Positions 52,619 through 58,693 of a stretch of DNA of 64,000 bases are shown one piece after another; the stretch's first letter is position 1; the number at the start of each line of letters is the position of its first letter. The stretch covers positions 1,964,501-2,028,500 of the forward strand of contig NZ_CP014674.1 in assembly GCF_001787335.1 (NCBI RefSeq), read 5' to 3'. The DNA comes from Kozakia baliensis. GTDB taxonomy: Bacteria; Pseudomonadota; Alphaproteobacteria; Acetobacterales; Acetobacteraceae. The translations under genes were made by a program, and so were the position numbers. The notes under the pieces are model-generated. The model was given only the letters and a program-made list of their open reading frames with translations. It ran no database searches and was not told where the DNA came from.

Positions 52619-54190
52619 TTAGGCCGAGAGCGCTTCCGGCTCAGCGCGTGTTCTTTTCACCAACAATTTGTTCAGCGCATGGACATAAGCGCGCACGGCG
52701 GAAACCACCGTATCGGCATCCGCGCCCTGCCCGTCCACGAGTTTGCCGTTTTCTTCCAAACGCACCGTCGTCCGCGCCTGCGCATCGGTGCCTTCCGTCA
52801 CGGCGGCAACGGAGAACAGCGCCAGAGTGGCATCGTGCGGGAAAATTTCCTGTATCGCGCGGAATGCCGCATCGACCGGACCATTGCCCGTCACCTGCGC
52901 TTGGCGAACCTCACTATCGACATTCAGTTCCAGCGTCGCCTGCGCCGGATGTTTCGAGCCGGAAACCAGTTCCAGAGAAACGAACTTGATCCGCTCATGG
53001 TCGCGCGTTTCATCATCCACCAGAGCGCGAATATCGTCGTCAAAGACGGTTTTCTTCTGGTCCGCCAAAATCTTGAAACGTTCGAAAGCCTGCTGAACGG
53101 TCACATCGTCCAGATCGTAACCGAGCGCCTTCAGCTTATCGCGGAATGCCGCGCGCCCGGAATGCTTGCCCAACACCAGCGAGGTCTTGGTCCAGCCCAC
53201 GCTTTCCGGCGTCATGATTTCATACGTCGCCGCATTCTTCAGGATTCCATCCTGATGAATGCCGCTCTCATGCGCGAAGGCGTTCCGGCCGACGATGGCT
53301 TTGTTCGGCTGCACGTCGAAGCTGGTGATATTGGCCAACATGCGCGAAACACTCAGCAAACGTGGCGTTTCGATATTGTTCTTGAACGCCAGCTTGTCAT
53401 GACGCGTGCGGATCGCCATCACGATTTCTTCTAACGCGGCGTTGCCGGCTCGCTCGCCGATACCGTTGATCGTGCATTCGATCTGGCGCGCGCCACCGGC
53501 CAATGCCGCCGCCGTGTTGGCGACGGCCAAGCCGAGATCGTTATGGTTGTGCGTGGAGAAAACAACATTTTCCGCACCCGGAACGCGCTCGCGCAGCATA
53601 GCGAAAATAGCTTGCAACTCGTCCGGCGTGGCGAAACCGACCGTATCGGGAATATTGATGGTGTTCGCGCCATTCTTGATCGCCACCTCAACGCAACGAC
53701 ACAGAAAATCCGGCTCGGTACGGGAACCATCCTCGGCGGACCATTGCACGTCGTCCGTAAATTGACGCGCCGCCTGATTGCCGGAGGCGATCAGATCCAG
53801 CACCGTCTCCGGCTCCATCCGCAGCTTGTATTTCATATGCAGCGGCGAGGTTGAGATGAAATTATGAATGCGGCGGCGCTTGGCGGGGGCGATAGCCTCC
53901 CCCGCCGCTTCGATATCGCGTTTGCCGCCGCTGCGCGCCAATCCGCAGACGACAGCTTCCTTCACCGTCTCGGCAATGCGCTGCACGCTCTCGAAATCGC
54001 CAGGCGAAGCAACGGGGAAACCCGCCTCGATCACATCGACGCCCAGCTCCTCAAGCGCCTTCGCCATACGCAGCTTTTCGTCCAGATTCATGGAGAACCC
54101 GGGCGATTGCTCTCCATCGCGCAATGTGGTGTCGAAAATAATAACGCGATCGTCGTCGATACGACCGAAAGAAGGGTGTTCGATGCTCAT
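52619..54190 (-). CDS. leuA: 2-isopropylmalate synthase
   Basis: The first committed enzyme of leucine synthesis, joining acetyl-CoA and 2-oxoisovalerate. The 523-residue protein has FDTTLRDGEQSPG with metal-binding Asp, NTINIPDTVGFATP, STHNHNDLGLAVANT with two metal-binding histidines, and a C-terminal regulatory (LeuA dimer) domain that mediates leucine feedback. A leucine-rich leader ORF lies 83 bases upstream, so attenuation is likely (see 54274-54375). Confidence 0.97.
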   Translation of the reverse strand: MSIEHPSFGRIDDDRVIIFDTTLRDGEQSPGFSMNLDEKLRMAKALEELGVDVIEAGFPVASPGDFESVQRIAETVKEAVVCGLARSGGKRDIEAAGEAIAPAKRRRIHNFISTSPLHMKYKLRMEPETVLDLIASGNQAARQFTDDVQWSAEDGSRTEPDFLCRCVEVAIKNGANTINIPDTVGFATPDELQAIFAMLRERVPGAENVVFSTHNHNDLGLAVANTAAALAGGARQIECTINGIGERAGNAALEEIVMAIRTRHDKLAFKNNIETPRLLSVSRMLANITSFDVQPNKAIVGRNAFAHESGIHQDGILKNAATYEIMTPESVGWTKTSLVLGKHSGRAAFRDKLKALGYDLDDVTVQQAFERFKILADQKKTVFDDDIRALVDDETRDHERIKFVSLELVSGSKHPAQATLELNVDSEVRQAQVTGNGPVDAAFRAIQEIFPHDATLALFSVAAVTEGTDAQARTTVRLEENGKLVDGQGADADTVVSAVRAYVHALNKLLVKRTRAEPEALSA

Positions 54191-54232
54191 AATAAATGGT
54201 GCTCGCTGACTTGAAAACGAAACTCAAAACCT

Positions 54233-54280
54233 CCCCTGAACGCACCGGCTAGGAGCCGACGGAAAATCCGCGCTCAGGGG
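54233..54280 (-). promoter_or_regulatory. leuA leader structure (candidate attenuator)
   Basis: On the minus strand, CCCCTGA (54280-54274) and TCAGGGG (54239-54233) pair; a further CGC/GCG extends the stem past a mismatch. Two hairpins sit inside: CGGA-TTT-TCCG and CGGCT-CCT-AGCCG, making a three-way junction. The leader stop TGA is part of the 5' arm, so a ribosome there would block the stem. A weak T-rich stretch, AGGTTTTGAGTTTCG, follows. Confidence 0.6.
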
Positions 54281-54375
54281 CTGATAAGTCGAAGCGTCGC
54301 GAGAAGTCCCAAGCGTGCGTCGAGGCGCGCGAAAGCGCGGCCGTCAAAACGCAAAGAGGCTGGGCGAATGAACAT
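54274..54375 (-). CDS. leuA leader peptide
   Basis: A 33-residue ORF, MFIRPASLRF... ending LRLISP, with seven leucines, six of them in residues 18-30 (RLDARLGLLATLRL). It ends 83 bases before leuA and overlaps the stem described at 54233-54280. Leucine-rich leaders that couple translation to attenuation are known upstream of leu operons. The SD is weak (GGATAC-like), so expression is inferred from position and composition. Confidence 0.6.
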   Translation of the reverse strand: MFIRPASLRFDGRAFARLDARLGLLATLRLISP

Positions 54376-54444
54376 ACGGTATAGCGTATCCTATTCCAGC
54401 CGGGTTTGGCTAGATCGCAATAGCGATAAAATCCCGCGCAGCTT

Positions 54445-55341
54445 CTAACCGGCGCTCGCCATCAAGCCGGGCGCGCTGGCGAAATAGCGATGAACAGCAT
54501 CGCACATCGCACTCGCCACCTGTGTGCGGTGCACGGCCTGCCGCAAAGCCGCCTCATCCAGCCGGTTGGACATAAAGCCCATTTCGACAAGCACGGAGGG
54601 GATTTCAGCCGATTTCAGCACGACGAACGCCGCATGGCGGGAAGGATGCGTAAGAAGGCCGATACGCGGGCGGAATGACGACACCACGCTCGACGCCATA
54701 TGAGCAGAACCTCGCCGTGTTTCTTCCGACACCAAACTGGAGAGGATCTGCTGCACTTCCGGGGAAACGCCGTGGAAAGCAGGCCCGGCGAAACGGTCCG
54801 CACTGTTTTCTTTTTGCGCCAAGGCCGCCGTTTGCGCATCCGATGCGCCTCCGGCAAGCGTATAGACGCTGGCTCCACGCACGCCAGGATCGTGCAAGGC
54901 ATCGGCGTGCATGGAAATAAAGAGATGCGCCTTATGGGTTTGCGCCAATTCCACCCGCCCTTCCAGGGGAATGAACCGGTCGCTATCGCGTGTCATGACG
55001 ACGTTATATTGGCCGGACGCCAGCAATTGACGGCGCAACTCGCTCGCCGCCGCCTCTGCGATATGTTTCTCATACGTGCCGGAAATACCGATCGCGCCCG
55101 GATCTTTGCCGCCATGACCAGGGTCCAACATAATGACGGGCTTCGGCGATGGTGCATGGCGTGCGATGGCCGGGGCCGCCAATGTATGATGTGCGGCAGC
55201 ATGAGCATGTTTGACAACATGATGCCCATGGGCGGAGCGCGCCCAACCCGCGCCAGATGAACCTAACGCGGCCATCGCTCCCAGGCCTGTGCTGGCGCTG
55301 CGCAAAAGGCGGCGGCGGGCGGCGTTGACGGGTTCCATCAT
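54445..55341 (-). CDS. N-acetylmuramoyl-L-alanine amidase (AmiC/Amidase_3 type), exported
   Basis: A zinc amidase that cleaves the peptide stem from glycan during septal splitting. The 298-residue protein (from the ATG at 55341) has MLDPGHGGKDPGA (zinc His/Glu region), MTRDSDRFI, LFISMHADA and a C-terminal EMGFMSN. The N-terminus has AARRRLLRSAS followed by a hydrophobic run, close to a twin-arginine signal; TatB and TatC are encoded nearby. Several ATGs make the start uncertain. Confidence 0.88.
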   Translation of the reverse strand: MMEPVNAARRRLLRSASTGLGAMAALGSSGAGWARSAHGHHVVKHAHAAAHHTLAAPAIARHAPSPKPVIMLDPGHGGKDPGAIGISGTYEKHIAEAAASELRRQLLASGQYNVVMTRDSDRFIPLEGRVELAQTHKAHLFISMHADALHDPGVRGASVYTLAGGASDAQTAALAQKENSADRFAGPAFHGVSPEVQQILSSLVSEETRRGSAHMASSVVSSFRPRIGLLTHPSRHAAFVVLKSAEIPSVLVEMGFMSNRLDEAALRQAVHRTQVASAMCDAVHRYFASAPGLMASAG

Positions 55342-55678
55342 GGTGTCGTTCTCGCAATGAAGCGCGGGGGTGGTCATTATTTCGGATAATTCAACAGCAT
55401 GTCCGAAACGTGGCAAGCGGATATACTTGCAGTGGCCTGATTATTCAGCCATGCTATGGCATTGAAGGCCGGAAAGACGGTCGATGCTCTGACGATGTGA
55501 AAAACGAACACTTGTCGAACATCCCGTGTTCTTCCTTCTTGCGACGCCATGCCCCGCATGCGCACCCCCTCGATACGCCCAAAGCTGCCCGAGGGCTTGT
55601 GGCCTGTTGAGCGCGCGCGTCGAAAAATATTTTTTTGCAGAGGCCCTATGAGTTTCGCCAATTTCGCCACGTGGAGTT

Positions 55679-55724: not shown

Positions 55725-55846
55725 CCGGCGTCTGATCGGTCTGCTGCCCCCTTCTAGAATTTGCGCCCCGCATCGTCATGCCCCAGCTTCGTTAAGCTTT
55801 GGGTCATGGGCGGCGTTCGCGGCGGCCGACCGGAGTGTTTTTATTG

Positions 55847-58693
55847 ATGCACAAGCGTATGTTGATCGACACCACACACGCGGAAGAAACCCGCGTTGTG
55901 GTAATGGATGGTGATCGGCTGGAAGATTACGACGTCGAGACGTCGAACAAGAAGCAGCTCAAAGGCAATATCTACCTTGCCAAAGTCATTCGCGTCGAAC
56001 CCAGCCTTCAGGCGGCCTTCGTCGATTACGGCGGGAACCGGCATGGATTTTTGGCTTTCAGCGAAATCCACCCTGATTACTTCCAGATCCCGGTCGCCGA
56101 TCGCGAAAAGCTGATCGCACTTCAGGACGAGGAAGCAAGGGCCGAAGAAGCGCGCCGCGATAGCGAAGATGAAACTTCCGTCGCTGAGGATGGCGAGGAA
56201 GACGAAAACGGCGCCTCCGAAGAAAATTCTCGCCCCGAAATCGTCGGCGGCGAACATGACACAGGCGATGAAAGCGCCGCGGCTCGCCGCACGGCGCGCT
56301 TCCTGCGCAACTATAAAATCCAGGAAGTCATCCGCCGCCGTCAGGTTCTGCTGGTGCAGGTCGTTAAGGAAGAGCGCGGTAATAAAGGCGCGGCACTGAC
56401 GACCTATGTCTCGCTGGCGGGCCGTTACTGCGTTCTGATGCCCAACGCTCTGCGGGGTGGTGGCGTTTCTCGCAAGATCACTTCCGATTCCGACCGCAAG
56501 CGCCTGCGCGACATTATTTCTGCGCTCGACCTGCCGCGCGGCATGGCGATGATCGTGCGCACGGCGGGCGCGCAACGCCCAGGCCCGGAAATCACGCGCG
56601 ATTGCGAATATCTCCTGCAATTATGGGATGATATCCGCAGCCATACGCTTTCTTCCGTCGCTCCCACGTTGGTTTACGAGGAAGCGAGCTTGATCAAGCG
56701 CGCGATCCGCGATCTGTTCAGCAAAGATATCGAAGAGATCGTGATCGACGGCGAACCGGCGTGGAAAAATGCACGCGAGTTCATGCGTCTGCTGATGCCG
56801 CATAACGTCAACAAGGTGAAGCTGTGGCGTGACCATGCGCAGAGCCTGTTCGCACGCTATCAGGTCGAAGGCCATCTGGACGCGATCTTCTCGCCGACTG
56901 CGCAACTGAGATCTGGCGGTTATATCGTCATCAATCAGACGGAAGCGCTGGTGGCGATCGACGTGAACTCGGGTCGTTCCACCGGCCAGCGCAACATCGA
57001 AGATACGGCGGTCCGCACCAATCTCGAAGCGGCGGAAGAAGTCGCCCGTCAGTTGCGTCTGCGCGATCTGGCCGGGTTGATCGTGATCGATTTCATCGAC
57101 ATGGAGAGCCGCAAGCACAATCATATGGTCGAGAAGCGCTTGAAAGAAGCGCTGCGCTCCGACCGTGCACGCATCCAGATCGGGCAGATATCTCATTTCG
57201 GCCTGTTGGAAATGTCGCGCCAGCGGCTGCGCCCCTCCATTGCCGAAGCGGTTCTAACACCCTGCCCCTATTGCCAGGGCACCGGTTATATTCGCGGCAC
57301 GGAAAGCGCGGCGCTGCATATTCTGCGCGCGGTCGATGACGAAGGCGCACAACAGCGAGCTGCTGAAATCGAAGTGCATGTCGCGCCGGGCGTGGCGTTG
57401 TATATCCTCAACAACAAGCGCGGCTGGCTGACGGATATCGAGCAGCGCCATCGCATGCAGGTCTTCTTCCAGGCCGATGAAGGCATGACGCCTTCCGATC
57501 TGCGTATCGAACGTATTCGCCCGCAGACGGCCCCCGCGCCGGAACCGCAAACCACGGTTCCGACGAACGTCATGGCGGGGCCTGGTCCTGCTGTTGCCGT
57601 GTTCGAAGCGGAACGCGAGGAGCCGCAAGCTTCGCCTTCTTCCAACGAATATTCCGAAGAAGGCCAGGAAGATCAGGGCCGCCGTCGCCGCCGCCGTCGC
57701 CGTCGTGGAGGTCGCCGGAACGACCAGCGCTTCGAGGACGATAACGGCACGGCGACGCCCGCCGAATATCGCGATCACAGCGCGGTAGAAGAGACGGAGT
57801 TCGACAACGCGGCAGCGGCCCCGGCGGCGCGCGCACCTACGCACGAACAGGCCGAAGAACCTGTTCAAACGCAGGAAGCGGCAATGATCATGCCGGGTCG
57901 TCGACGCACACGCACGCGGCGCGCCATCCGGGAAGATCGTCCGTCACGCGATCGTCAAGACCATGACAATCAACGCGAATATCAATATCGCGAAGAGCGT
58001 CAGCCTCAGAACCAGCGCCCCGTTTGGGTCGGCCCCACCCCGGCGGACCCGTTTGGCGGCGGCAGCTTCGACATTTTCGATGTGATCGAGCAGGCTGAGT
58101 TCGAGCAGGTTTCTGCGCCGCATCACGAACCGACTTCGGCACCGGTCACGCCGGAGAAGGTCGAGGTTCATGTCGAACCTGTGCCGCAGGTTGAGTCTTC
58201 TGCTCCCGAAACTCAGGCGAACGAAACGCCGGTCGTTGAGGTGCCGGTTGAGGAAGCGCCTGTCCCGCAAGCTGAAGCGACGGAAGCTGAAGTAACGGAA
58301 ACGCCTGCGGCAGCGACGCCAAAACCCCGCCGGCGCGGTCGTCCGCGTAAGACGGCCGCGGCTAAGGCCGAGGTGACGGAACCCGCGCCGACCGCGCCGG
58401 AACCCGCCGATGCGCAGCCTGTTGCTGAGGTGGAAGATACGGCCTCGGAGACAAAAGCGGCACCGCGCCGCCGTGGTCGCCCGCGCAAAACGCCGGCAGC
58501 GGAAAATGTTGCGGAAGTTTCCGAAAAAGCGGCAACCACCGCTCCGAAACCGAAGAGCCGCGCGCGCAGCAAGGCCAAGGTGAAGGAAGAAGCTCCCGCC
58601 GAGACGGATAACGCCGAGCAGCCGCTCGTGCAGCCGATCGACGTGGATAAAACGCCTCCCGCCAAACGCCGCACAGGCTGGTGGAAGCGTTAA
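55847..58693 (+). CDS. rne: Ribonuclease E/G
   Basis: The main mRNA-decay and rRNA-processing endonuclease. The 948-residue protein has an S1 domain with a large acidic insertion (about residues 80-150), the catalytic VAIDVNSGRST and VIDFIDMES aspartates, and the Zn-link CPYCQGTG. The C-terminal half (about 570-948) is disordered: an Arg-rich block RRRRRRRRGG near 615, then Pro/Glu/Val repeats and two RRRGRPRKT AT-hook-like motifs. ATG at 55847 is taken as the start, and a second ATG at 55859 is possible. Confidence 0.95.
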   Translation: MHKRMLIDTTHAEETRVVVMDGDRLEDYDVETSNKKQLKGNIYLAKVIRVEPSLQAAFVDYGGNRHGFLAFSEIHPDYFQIPVADREKLIALQDEEARAEEARRDSEDETSVAEDGEEDENGASEENSRPEIVGGEHDTGDESAAARRTARFLRNYKIQEVIRRRQVLLVQVVKEERGNKGAALTTYVSLAGRYCVLMPNALRGGGVSRKITSDSDRKRLRDIISALDLPRGMAMIVRTAGAQRPGPEITRDCEYLLQLWDDIRSHTLSSVAPTLVYEEASLIKRAIRDLFSKDIEEIVIDGEPAWKNAREFMRLLMPHNVNKVKLWRDHAQSLFARYQVEGHLDAIFSPTAQLRSGGYIVINQTEALVAIDVNSGRSTGQRNIEDTAVRTNLEAAEEVARQLRLRDLAGLIVIDFIDMESRKHNHMVEKRLKEALRSDRARIQIGQISHFGLLEMSRQRLRPSIAEAVLTPCPYCQGTGYIRGTESAALHILRAVDDEGAQQRAAEIEVHVAPGVALYILNNKRGWLTDIEQRHRMQVFFQADEGMTPSDLRIERIRPQTAPAPEPQTTVPTNVMAGPGPAVAVFEAEREEPQASPSSNEYSEEGQEDQGRRRRRRRRRGGRRNDQRFEDDNGTATPAEYRDHSAVEETEFDNAAAAPAARAPTHEQAEEPVQTQEAAMIMPGRRRTRTRRAIREDRPSRDRQDHDNQREYQYREERQPQNQRPVWVGPTPADPFGGGSFDIFDVIEQAEFEQVSAPHHEPTSAPVTPEKVEVHVEPVPQVESSAPETQANETPVVEVPVEEAPVPQAEATEAEVTETPAAATPKPRRRGRPRKTAAAKAEVTEPAPTAPEPADAQPVAEVEDTASETKAAPRRRGRPRKTPAAENVAEVSEKAATTAPKPKSRARSKAKVKEEAPAETDNAEQPLVQPIDVDKTPPAKRRTGWWKR

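Follow-up and report, generated by a model that had tools for sequence, protein, structure and literature searches.

The leuA gene of Kozakia baliensis, which encodes 2-isopropylmalate synthase, is preceded by a short leucine-rich open reading frame (ORF) and a potential hairpin. This raises the question of whether the two together form a regulatory leader and, if so, how such a leader would act on leuA. We analysed the locus within a window of 64,000 nucleotides (the whole stretch of DNA considered here, to which all positions refer) and compared it with public genomes. On comparative sequence evidence, the leader ORF and hairpin are a conserved regulatory element that recurs across Alphaproteobacteria and that apparently has not yet been catalogued. 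Our preferred reading, with a probability of about 0.6, is of a leader-peptide attenuator that senses leucine, acts on leuA, is conserved across Alphaproteobacteria and is likely to be mainly translational. The pace of the cell's own ribosomes would probably serve as its gauge of leucine.

The leuA locus and its leader

The presumed regulated gene, leuA (52619..54190, minus strand), was identified by matches to NF002087 and TIGR00973 above their cut-offs. Its product is 88% identical to LeuA of Brytella acorum, and its nearest LeuA relatives are from Acetobacteraceae. The neighbouring genes encode an N-acetylmuramoyl-L-alanine amidase-like protein (54445-55416, minus strand; below NCBIfam cut-offs), the 3′ end of which (54445) sits 69 bases ahead of the leader ORF, and an Rne/Rng family ribonuclease (55799-58693, plus strand; TIGR00757 above cut-off).

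The preliminary description of this locus, made from the letters of the window, had reported a 33-codon ORF with seven Leu residues, six of them within 13 codons, ending in a TGA that is part of a 7-bp stem arm. The ORF translation bore this out: the leader ORF (54274..54375, minus strand; MFIRPASLRFDGRAFARLDARLGLLATLRLISP, stop TGA) has six of its seven Leu residues within codons 18-30, and 83 bases separate its UGA from leuA. The TGA lies, as described, within CCCCTGA (54280-54274), the complement of which, TCAGGGG, is found at 54239-54233. In the predicted fold, this stem lengthens to CCCCUGAGCGC paired with GCGUUCAGGGG, a hairpin we refer to as P2; its 5′ arm (54270..54280, minus strand) holds the leader stop UGA (54276-54274), and its 3′ arm occupies 54233..54243 on the same strand. 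The two small hairpins reported inside the stem were also present in the predicted fold, as GGA-UUU-UCC (54261..54269, minus strand), which is local to this genome, and UCGGCU-CCU-AGCCGG (54245..54259, minus strand).

Folding of the window sequence gave z-scores of -2.55 for 54185-54290 (2 of 200 dinucleotide shuffles as good), -2.15 for 54185-54420 (5 of 200) and -1.31 for 54225-54380 (24 of 200). Because single-sequence folding was just modestly better than chance, the case rests on conservation and comparison. The covariance models of Rfam 15, RF00512 (Leu_leader) included, gave no match at gathering threshold in the window. At E<=10, positions 54100-54500 yielded two plus-strand matches, both far below threshold, and none on the strand of the leader; at E<=1, six matches were obtained in 11 relatives, none of them at the leader. 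The preliminary description had matched the junction shape, with its embedded stop codon, to no named RNA motif.

Distribution and gene context

From the public genomes of Acetobacteraceae and near relatives, 80 leuA loci were compared, each with up to 1,500 bases upstream. The leader element was found 5′ of leuA in 79 of them, so the ORF is conserved in relatives, the absence of which would have spoken against the preliminary description; the exception (L066) has just 25 bases upstream. The upstream string was CGACTTA in 77 loci and CAACTTA in two (both Commensalibacter), followed by both hairpin arms, and in one locus (L070) the search for the arms needed a wider start.

A covariance model, R1, was built from 56 sequences (alignment A1, window included). 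The leader element was its sole real match in the window's own genome (E 2.9e-10), the other matches having E-values of 4.35 (at the same place on the opposite strand) and 5.96. At E<=0.1, R1 matched 267 of the 299 genomes searched from the window's family and 87 of 289 Alphaproteobacteria genomes. A second model, R2, built from 77 class-wide sequences (alignment A2), matched 121 of 385 Alphaproteobacteria genomes at E<=0.05, three of the 121 belonging to the window's family; the class samples searched with R1 (289) and R2 (385) overlap. In a phylum sample, R2 matched 57 of 299 genomes, comprising 56 Alphaproteobacteria and one other (E 0.024).

A LeuA-type match lay within 400 bases downstream in 112 of 114 class loci (29/29, 53/55 and 30/30), a set in which one genome is counted twice (L123 and L195) and L168 is a repeat of L051. 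The remaining two loci (L161 and L162) are without leuA and were taken as false matches. In L145, another small ORF lies between the leader and the LeuA-type gene. Among the 112 downstream LeuA-type proteins, 14 were just 25-36% identical to LeuA of the window. The only one of these 14 to be scanned (L122, 250 residues) had PRK03739 as its best profile, at 409 bits against a whole-protein cut-off of 455, and PRK03739 and TIGR00970 both scored far above TIGR00973. The low-identity set and the profile of L122 together indicate that the genes downstream of the leader encode at least two distant forms of 2-isopropylmalate synthase.

Two further observations concern the edges of this distribution. 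A pattern search of 337 genomes found four loci (L228-L231) with the leader end LRLIGP and a short GC-rich hairpin; this variant precedes a divergent LeuA homologue with 26-28% identity. A record labelled Terriglobia (L057) carries a leuA 74% identical to that of the window and the same leader, and is probably a mislabelled or contaminated metagenome-assembled genome.

Conserved codons at the leader end

The conserved codons of the leader are CUN-CGA-CUU-ANN-NNN-CCC-stop, which give the peptide end LRLxxP*. They contain the near-invariant CUUCGACUUA (54285..54294, minus strand; alignments A1 and A2), made up of the Leu-Arg-Leu codons and the first base of the next codon. These are the probable stall codons and probably part of the 5′ strand of the long-range helix P1 considered below. 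In 57 of 59 distinct Acetobacteraceae loci and 101 of 105 distinct class loci, a stop codon closes the CUU frame before P2 ends. Conserved Leu codons, which the preliminary description had proposed to look for in relatives, were present: the 101 closed class leaders have Leu at position -4 in 92 cases and at -6 in 89, with Pro as the last residue in 86 and UGA as the stop in 87. The last 14 codons held a mean of 4.4 Leu in the 57 distinct Acetobacteraceae loci and 4.6 in the 101 distinct class loci. CTT made up 155 of 251 Leu codons in this stretch in Acetobacteraceae and 242 of 464 in the class, compared with 14.5% in 43 ORFs of the window. As is general for leader-peptide attenuators, the predicted leader is a short ORF that lies 5′ of a biosynthetic gene and has many codons for the end product.

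The Arg-Leu pair and the final Pro-UGA are conserved beyond the need of a plain run of Leu codons. This would suit an arrest peptide, the LRLxxP-UGA end of which would detect free leucine within the ribosome and hold up termination, in the manner of TnaC, a tryptophan-sensing arrest peptide that stalls termination. However, 33 of 101 class loci have Leu, not Arg, at residue -5, and 16 of 57 Acetobacteraceae loci end in LRLxxPWA*, with the stop displaced downstream by two codons. Moreover, the codon after the second CUU opens with A in all aligned sequences (56/56 and 77/77), and it encodes Ile, Thr, Ser, Met or Arg; as the A is invariant whatever residue is encoded, the constraint at this codon is at the level of the base. 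We therefore regard an arrest peptide as very improbable.

Further upstream in the leader, variation by codon position gave weak support for protein-level selection, the third-position excess being slight or absent (23/23/23 variable sites in the window and two relatives). The leader is 14 codons long in Gluconobacter (MTFLSILSLRLIGP*) and Bombella and about 17-45 codons long in most other relatives, its start being uncertain where there are several in-frame ATGs. In Asaia astilbis and A. prunellae (L004 and L009), two and one C, respectively, are missing in the CCCC arm, and the leader frame runs on, which reflects either decay or sequencing error.

The hairpin P2 shows compensatory changes

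In alignment A2 (77 sequences), 95.2% of the positions in the ten-pair P2 stem formed standard pairs, a percentage that may have been raised because the sequences were selected by hand. Compensatory changes on both sides were present at 7 of the 10 pairs. Doubly changed cells numbered 43, compared with 5.9 after shuffling (0 of 500 equally high), and pairing fell to 28-60% when the arms were slid by one to three columns. For A2, we kept 25 of 79 Acetobacteraceae loci and dropped 22 of 81 class loci by name (near-duplicates, broken contigs and divergent or odd arms); of the 84 loci listed, 77 were used, with L037, L060, L064, L078, L081, L129 and L138 left out, and class loci found later are not part of the alignment. 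RNAalifold applied to A1 (56 sequences) returned nine pairs, four of them with double changes. Examples of compensated arms are CCUCUGA/UCAGAGG and CCCUUAGGCG/CGCCUAAGGG.

The base stem was present in the predicted fold of all 65 distinct Acetobacteraceae hairpins and of 105 of 106 distinct hairpins from the wider class. A single inner hairpin is the rule in relatives, and its sequence varies; two were predicted in just 2 of 65 and 2 of 106 of these hairpins, respectively, which makes the three-way junction a local feature. We therefore rejected the junction as the conserved core, and the preliminary description, which had taken it as the defining shape, does not hold on this point. Its proposal that all three stems be examined for covariation was borne out for the main stem, and the pair of inner hairpins proved not to be conserved. 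Leader attenuators in general have an RNA structure that overlaps the regulatory codons or the stop, and here the 5′ arm of the predicted P2 holds the stop in most members.

These results also bear on the idea that the leader merely boosts leuA through ribosome reinitiation, without sensing leucine. Such a general role has been proposed for leader genes (in the accessible part of PMC4833913). Specific Leu codons, a covarying P2 and the association with LeuA-type genes all argue against it, and we consider it highly unlikely.

Variants of P2 were seen by eye in two groups of loci. In L053-L057 and L080, a second copy of the 5′ arm (CCCCUGAGG or shorter) directly follows the 3′ arm, which could pair with either copy. 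Four Acidocella-like loci (L060, L072, L073 and L079) have AUAAGUC shortly after the stop, inside the hairpin; this complements GACUUAU of the leader and could compete with P2.

T-runs after P2 are rare

If P2 were a terminator, a ribosome stalled on the Leu codons would mask its 5′ arm and allow read-through, as in classical transcription attenuation. The geometry allows for this: the 5′ arm starts 4 bases after CUUCGACUUA, which places it inside the footprint of a stalled ribosome, given the size of that footprint. T-runs that would suit a terminator follow P2 in Commensalibacter, with T8 in L051 and L168 (the same genome) and T6 in L052, and in Bombella, with T6 in L030. By contrast, the T-run of the window is weak (UCAGGGGAGGUUUUGAG), as the preliminary description had stated, and a terminator scan of the window reported none at P2. 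At least four consecutive T within 12 bases after P2 occurred in just 7 of 64 Acetobacteraceae and 6 of 107 class loci, counts that include L173 and L214 at wrong coordinates (contig ends). The T fraction in the nine bases after P2 was 0.27 in Acetobacteraceae and 0.22 in the class, against 0.22 and 0.18 over the whole stretch to leuA. An intrinsic terminator is thus disfavoured as the general mechanism, as the window and most members are without a U-run, and we consider classical transcription attenuation unlikely overall.

In the three Commensalibacter loci (L051, L052 and L168), the motif is UUUCAACUUA and the hairpin is AT-rich except for CCCC/GGGG, so that it looks like an ordinary intrinsic terminator. 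In this AT-rich lineage, the same hairpin with its T8 or T6 run would act as one.

A strongly conserved hairpin and leader, with no T-run in most members, would also be compatible with termination by Rho. Here, Rho would reach the untranslated stretch and stop transcription once the leader ribosome has left, and a stalled ribosome or an open leuA ribosome-binding site would protect the transcript. This version is compatible with blocking of leuA translation by P1, and we consider it improbable.

A predicted long-range helix to the leuA ribosome-binding region

A second helix is part of the preferred reading, control of leuA translation. P1 would pair the Leu codons and the codons around them with the 5′ region or ribosome-binding site of leuA, closing P2; the two helices are nested. 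In the window, the best pairing joins GC..CGCU..GACUU (54286..54300, minus strand) with AAGUCAGCG.GC at -12.3 kcal/mol (RNAduplex) and covers the ribosome-binding region. The candidate 3′ strand, AAGUCAGCGAGC (54201..54212, minus strand), ends 10 bases ahead of the leuA start codon. This pairing is not distinctive for the window alone, where 30 of 79 partners taken from other loci do equally well. Other loci offer pairings recognisable by eye: in L101, the leader end CUUCGACUUAUUCGC pairs with GCGAAUAGUCGAAG before leuA, and in L113, CCCUUCGACUUAGGUG pairs with CACCU-AAGUC-GAAGGG, the last part of which is the likely Shine-Dalgarno sequence. In L166, GCUCCUUAU pairs with AUAAGGAGC.

For P1, we compared the pairing energy of the 21-base leader end with its own downstream region and with the corresponding regions of other species. 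Near-duplicates, uncertain leuA starts, divergent variants and broken contigs were dropped by name, which left 63 of 81 loci, or 85 of 111 with duplicate and spacer-length filters. In 25 class loci, own partners paired at -18.4 kcal/mol and swapped partners at -14.0 kcal/mol (p 2.4e-4). With row and column means corrected, 63 class loci gave a z-score of -8.8, against -2.0, -1.3 and -0.2 for controls shifted upstream by 25, 50 and 75 bases. The set of 85 class loci gave -9.6 (0 of 10000 permutations), against -1.0 for the reversed strand and -2.8 for a shift of -30. The excess went beyond 2 kcal/mol in 45 of these 85 loci, and in 22 of the 45 the partner ends no more than 12 bases from the leuA start. 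In 70 Acetobacteraceae loci, the z-score was -6.7, against -3.6 for the control shifted by -25. Across the class, these comparisons thus support P1 as a predicted helix between the Leu codons and the 5′ region or ribosome-binding site of leuA; for the window alone they do not, and in the window's own family P1 is weak. P1, the partner position of which varies, was not recovered when 31 loci were folded from an alignment.

We also considered P1 pairing as the sole cause of the invariance of CUUCGACUUA. It proved insufficient: the partner strand varies, and in 76 Acetobacteraceae loci the 10-base core had no advantage over shuffled downstream sequences (median p 0.33; two loci below 0.05), so that pairing would account for at most part of the invariance. 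The near-invariant sequence, its predicted pairing with the region before leuA and the class-wide distribution are observations beyond those of the preliminary description.

When folding was modelled with the Leu codons occupied by a parked ribosome, the predicted opening of the ribosome-binding site in 88 class loci rose from 0.39 to 0.46, compared with 0.40 for a control mask; the effect is small (p 8e-4 against the control mask). The change was not significant in 66 Acetobacteraceae loci (p 0.09) and went in the opposite direction in the window (from 0.53 to 0.32).

T-runs are rare after P2 and P1 would extend to the ribosome-binding region, which makes it most likely that the element generally acts by controlling leuA translation, in line with the earlier suggestion that translation may be controlled rather than termination. 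With ample charged tRNA-Leu, the ribosome would complete the leader and depart at the stop, upon which P2 and P1 could form and the leuA ribosome-binding region would be closed. When leucine is short, the ribosome would wait on CUU-CGA-CUU, covering the P1 strand and the 5′ arm of P2, and leuA would be translated.

A wider reading, which we put forward tentatively and rate at somewhat below even odds, sees in the element an ancient leucine switch of Alphaproteobacteria that is not yet catalogued and whose Leu codons (CUC and CUU) would themselves serve as an anti-Shine-Dalgarno sequence. A ribosome waiting for tRNA-Leu would keep leuA open and a finished leader would close it; the switch would have been kept with the function while the enzyme changed, and would have become a terminator in an AT-rich lineage.

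Relation to described systems

Vitreschak et al. reportedly described, in 2004, attenuators of branched-chain genes, with ilvIH in alphaproteobacteria. The enterobacterial leu operon leader, which we take to be the Rfam family RF00512 (Leu_leader), differs from the present element, for which no Rfam leader match was found and in which the U-run is missing in most members. According to the accessible passages of PMC6123439, the two share a Leu-codon leader peptide before leuA and attenuation, E. coli leuABCD being preceded by a 28-residue peptide with four Leu. The same passages report that branched-chain amino acid attenuators are widely predicted in Gram-negative bacteria, and these have in common with the element leader peptides for branched-chain amino acid genes.

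Of the described systems, the actinobacterial LEU element of leuA (Seliverstov et al. 2005, PMC1262725) comes closest, sharing the logic but not the fold, as far as the available part of that source describes it. Both lie upstream of leuA with a Leu-rich leader ORF. A base stem that joins the run of Leu codons to the Shine-Dalgarno box of leuA is proposed for the LEU element, and a comparable candidate helix is supported here across the class. Going by the description of the LEU element, which is that of a pseudoknot, the alphaproteobacterial element is set apart by its two nested helices, by a stop codon inside P2 and by the near-invariant CUUCGACUUA. If the present reading is true, Leu codons would close the leuA ribosome-binding site in a second phylum through a different fold. 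For Alphaproteobacteria, this would add a defined RNA element to the control of leucine synthesis, one that comes with a covariance model and with codons and a pairing that can be tested, and a regulatory leader would have been retained before two distant forms of 2-isopropylmalate synthase.

An open-literature search, which included PMC2704228 by its terms, returned no recognisable report of the alphaproteobacterial element in the text available, and the attenuator survey of Lopatovskaya et al. 2010 may mention leuA leaders of this class. The accessible passages of PMC6123439 and PMC10117765 describe no alphaproteobacterial leuA element with this motif.

Promoter-like sites and the 5′ end of the leader

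No promoter-like site was found in the window upstream of the leader ORF. The one promoter-like site of the window (54217-54189, with 0.3 expected by chance) would give transcripts that start inside leuA. Of 70 Acetobacteraceae loci, 54 have a TTGC/TTGA box and a loose -10 box that end 6-12 bases ahead of an ATG in the leader frame; the window and its relatives in Asaia do not belong to this group. Control positions gave such boxes in 2 of the 70, and the loci are related and so do not count as independent cases. In the wider class, the boxes were present in 13 of 97 loci, against 13 for the control. The position of these boxes just before the leader ATG suggests that many Acetobacteraceae leaders are probably translated from leaderless or nearly leaderless transcripts.

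A leaderless attenuator is described, in the available part of PMC10117765, for trpL of Sinorhizobium meliloti, the 14-residue leader peptide of which (peTrpL) has the length of that in some members here. The S. meliloti ORF stands at the 5′ end of the transcript, a position predicted here from the boxes in the 54 loci. The trpL system differs in responding to tryptophan and in acting by transcription attenuation that gives a released sRNA.
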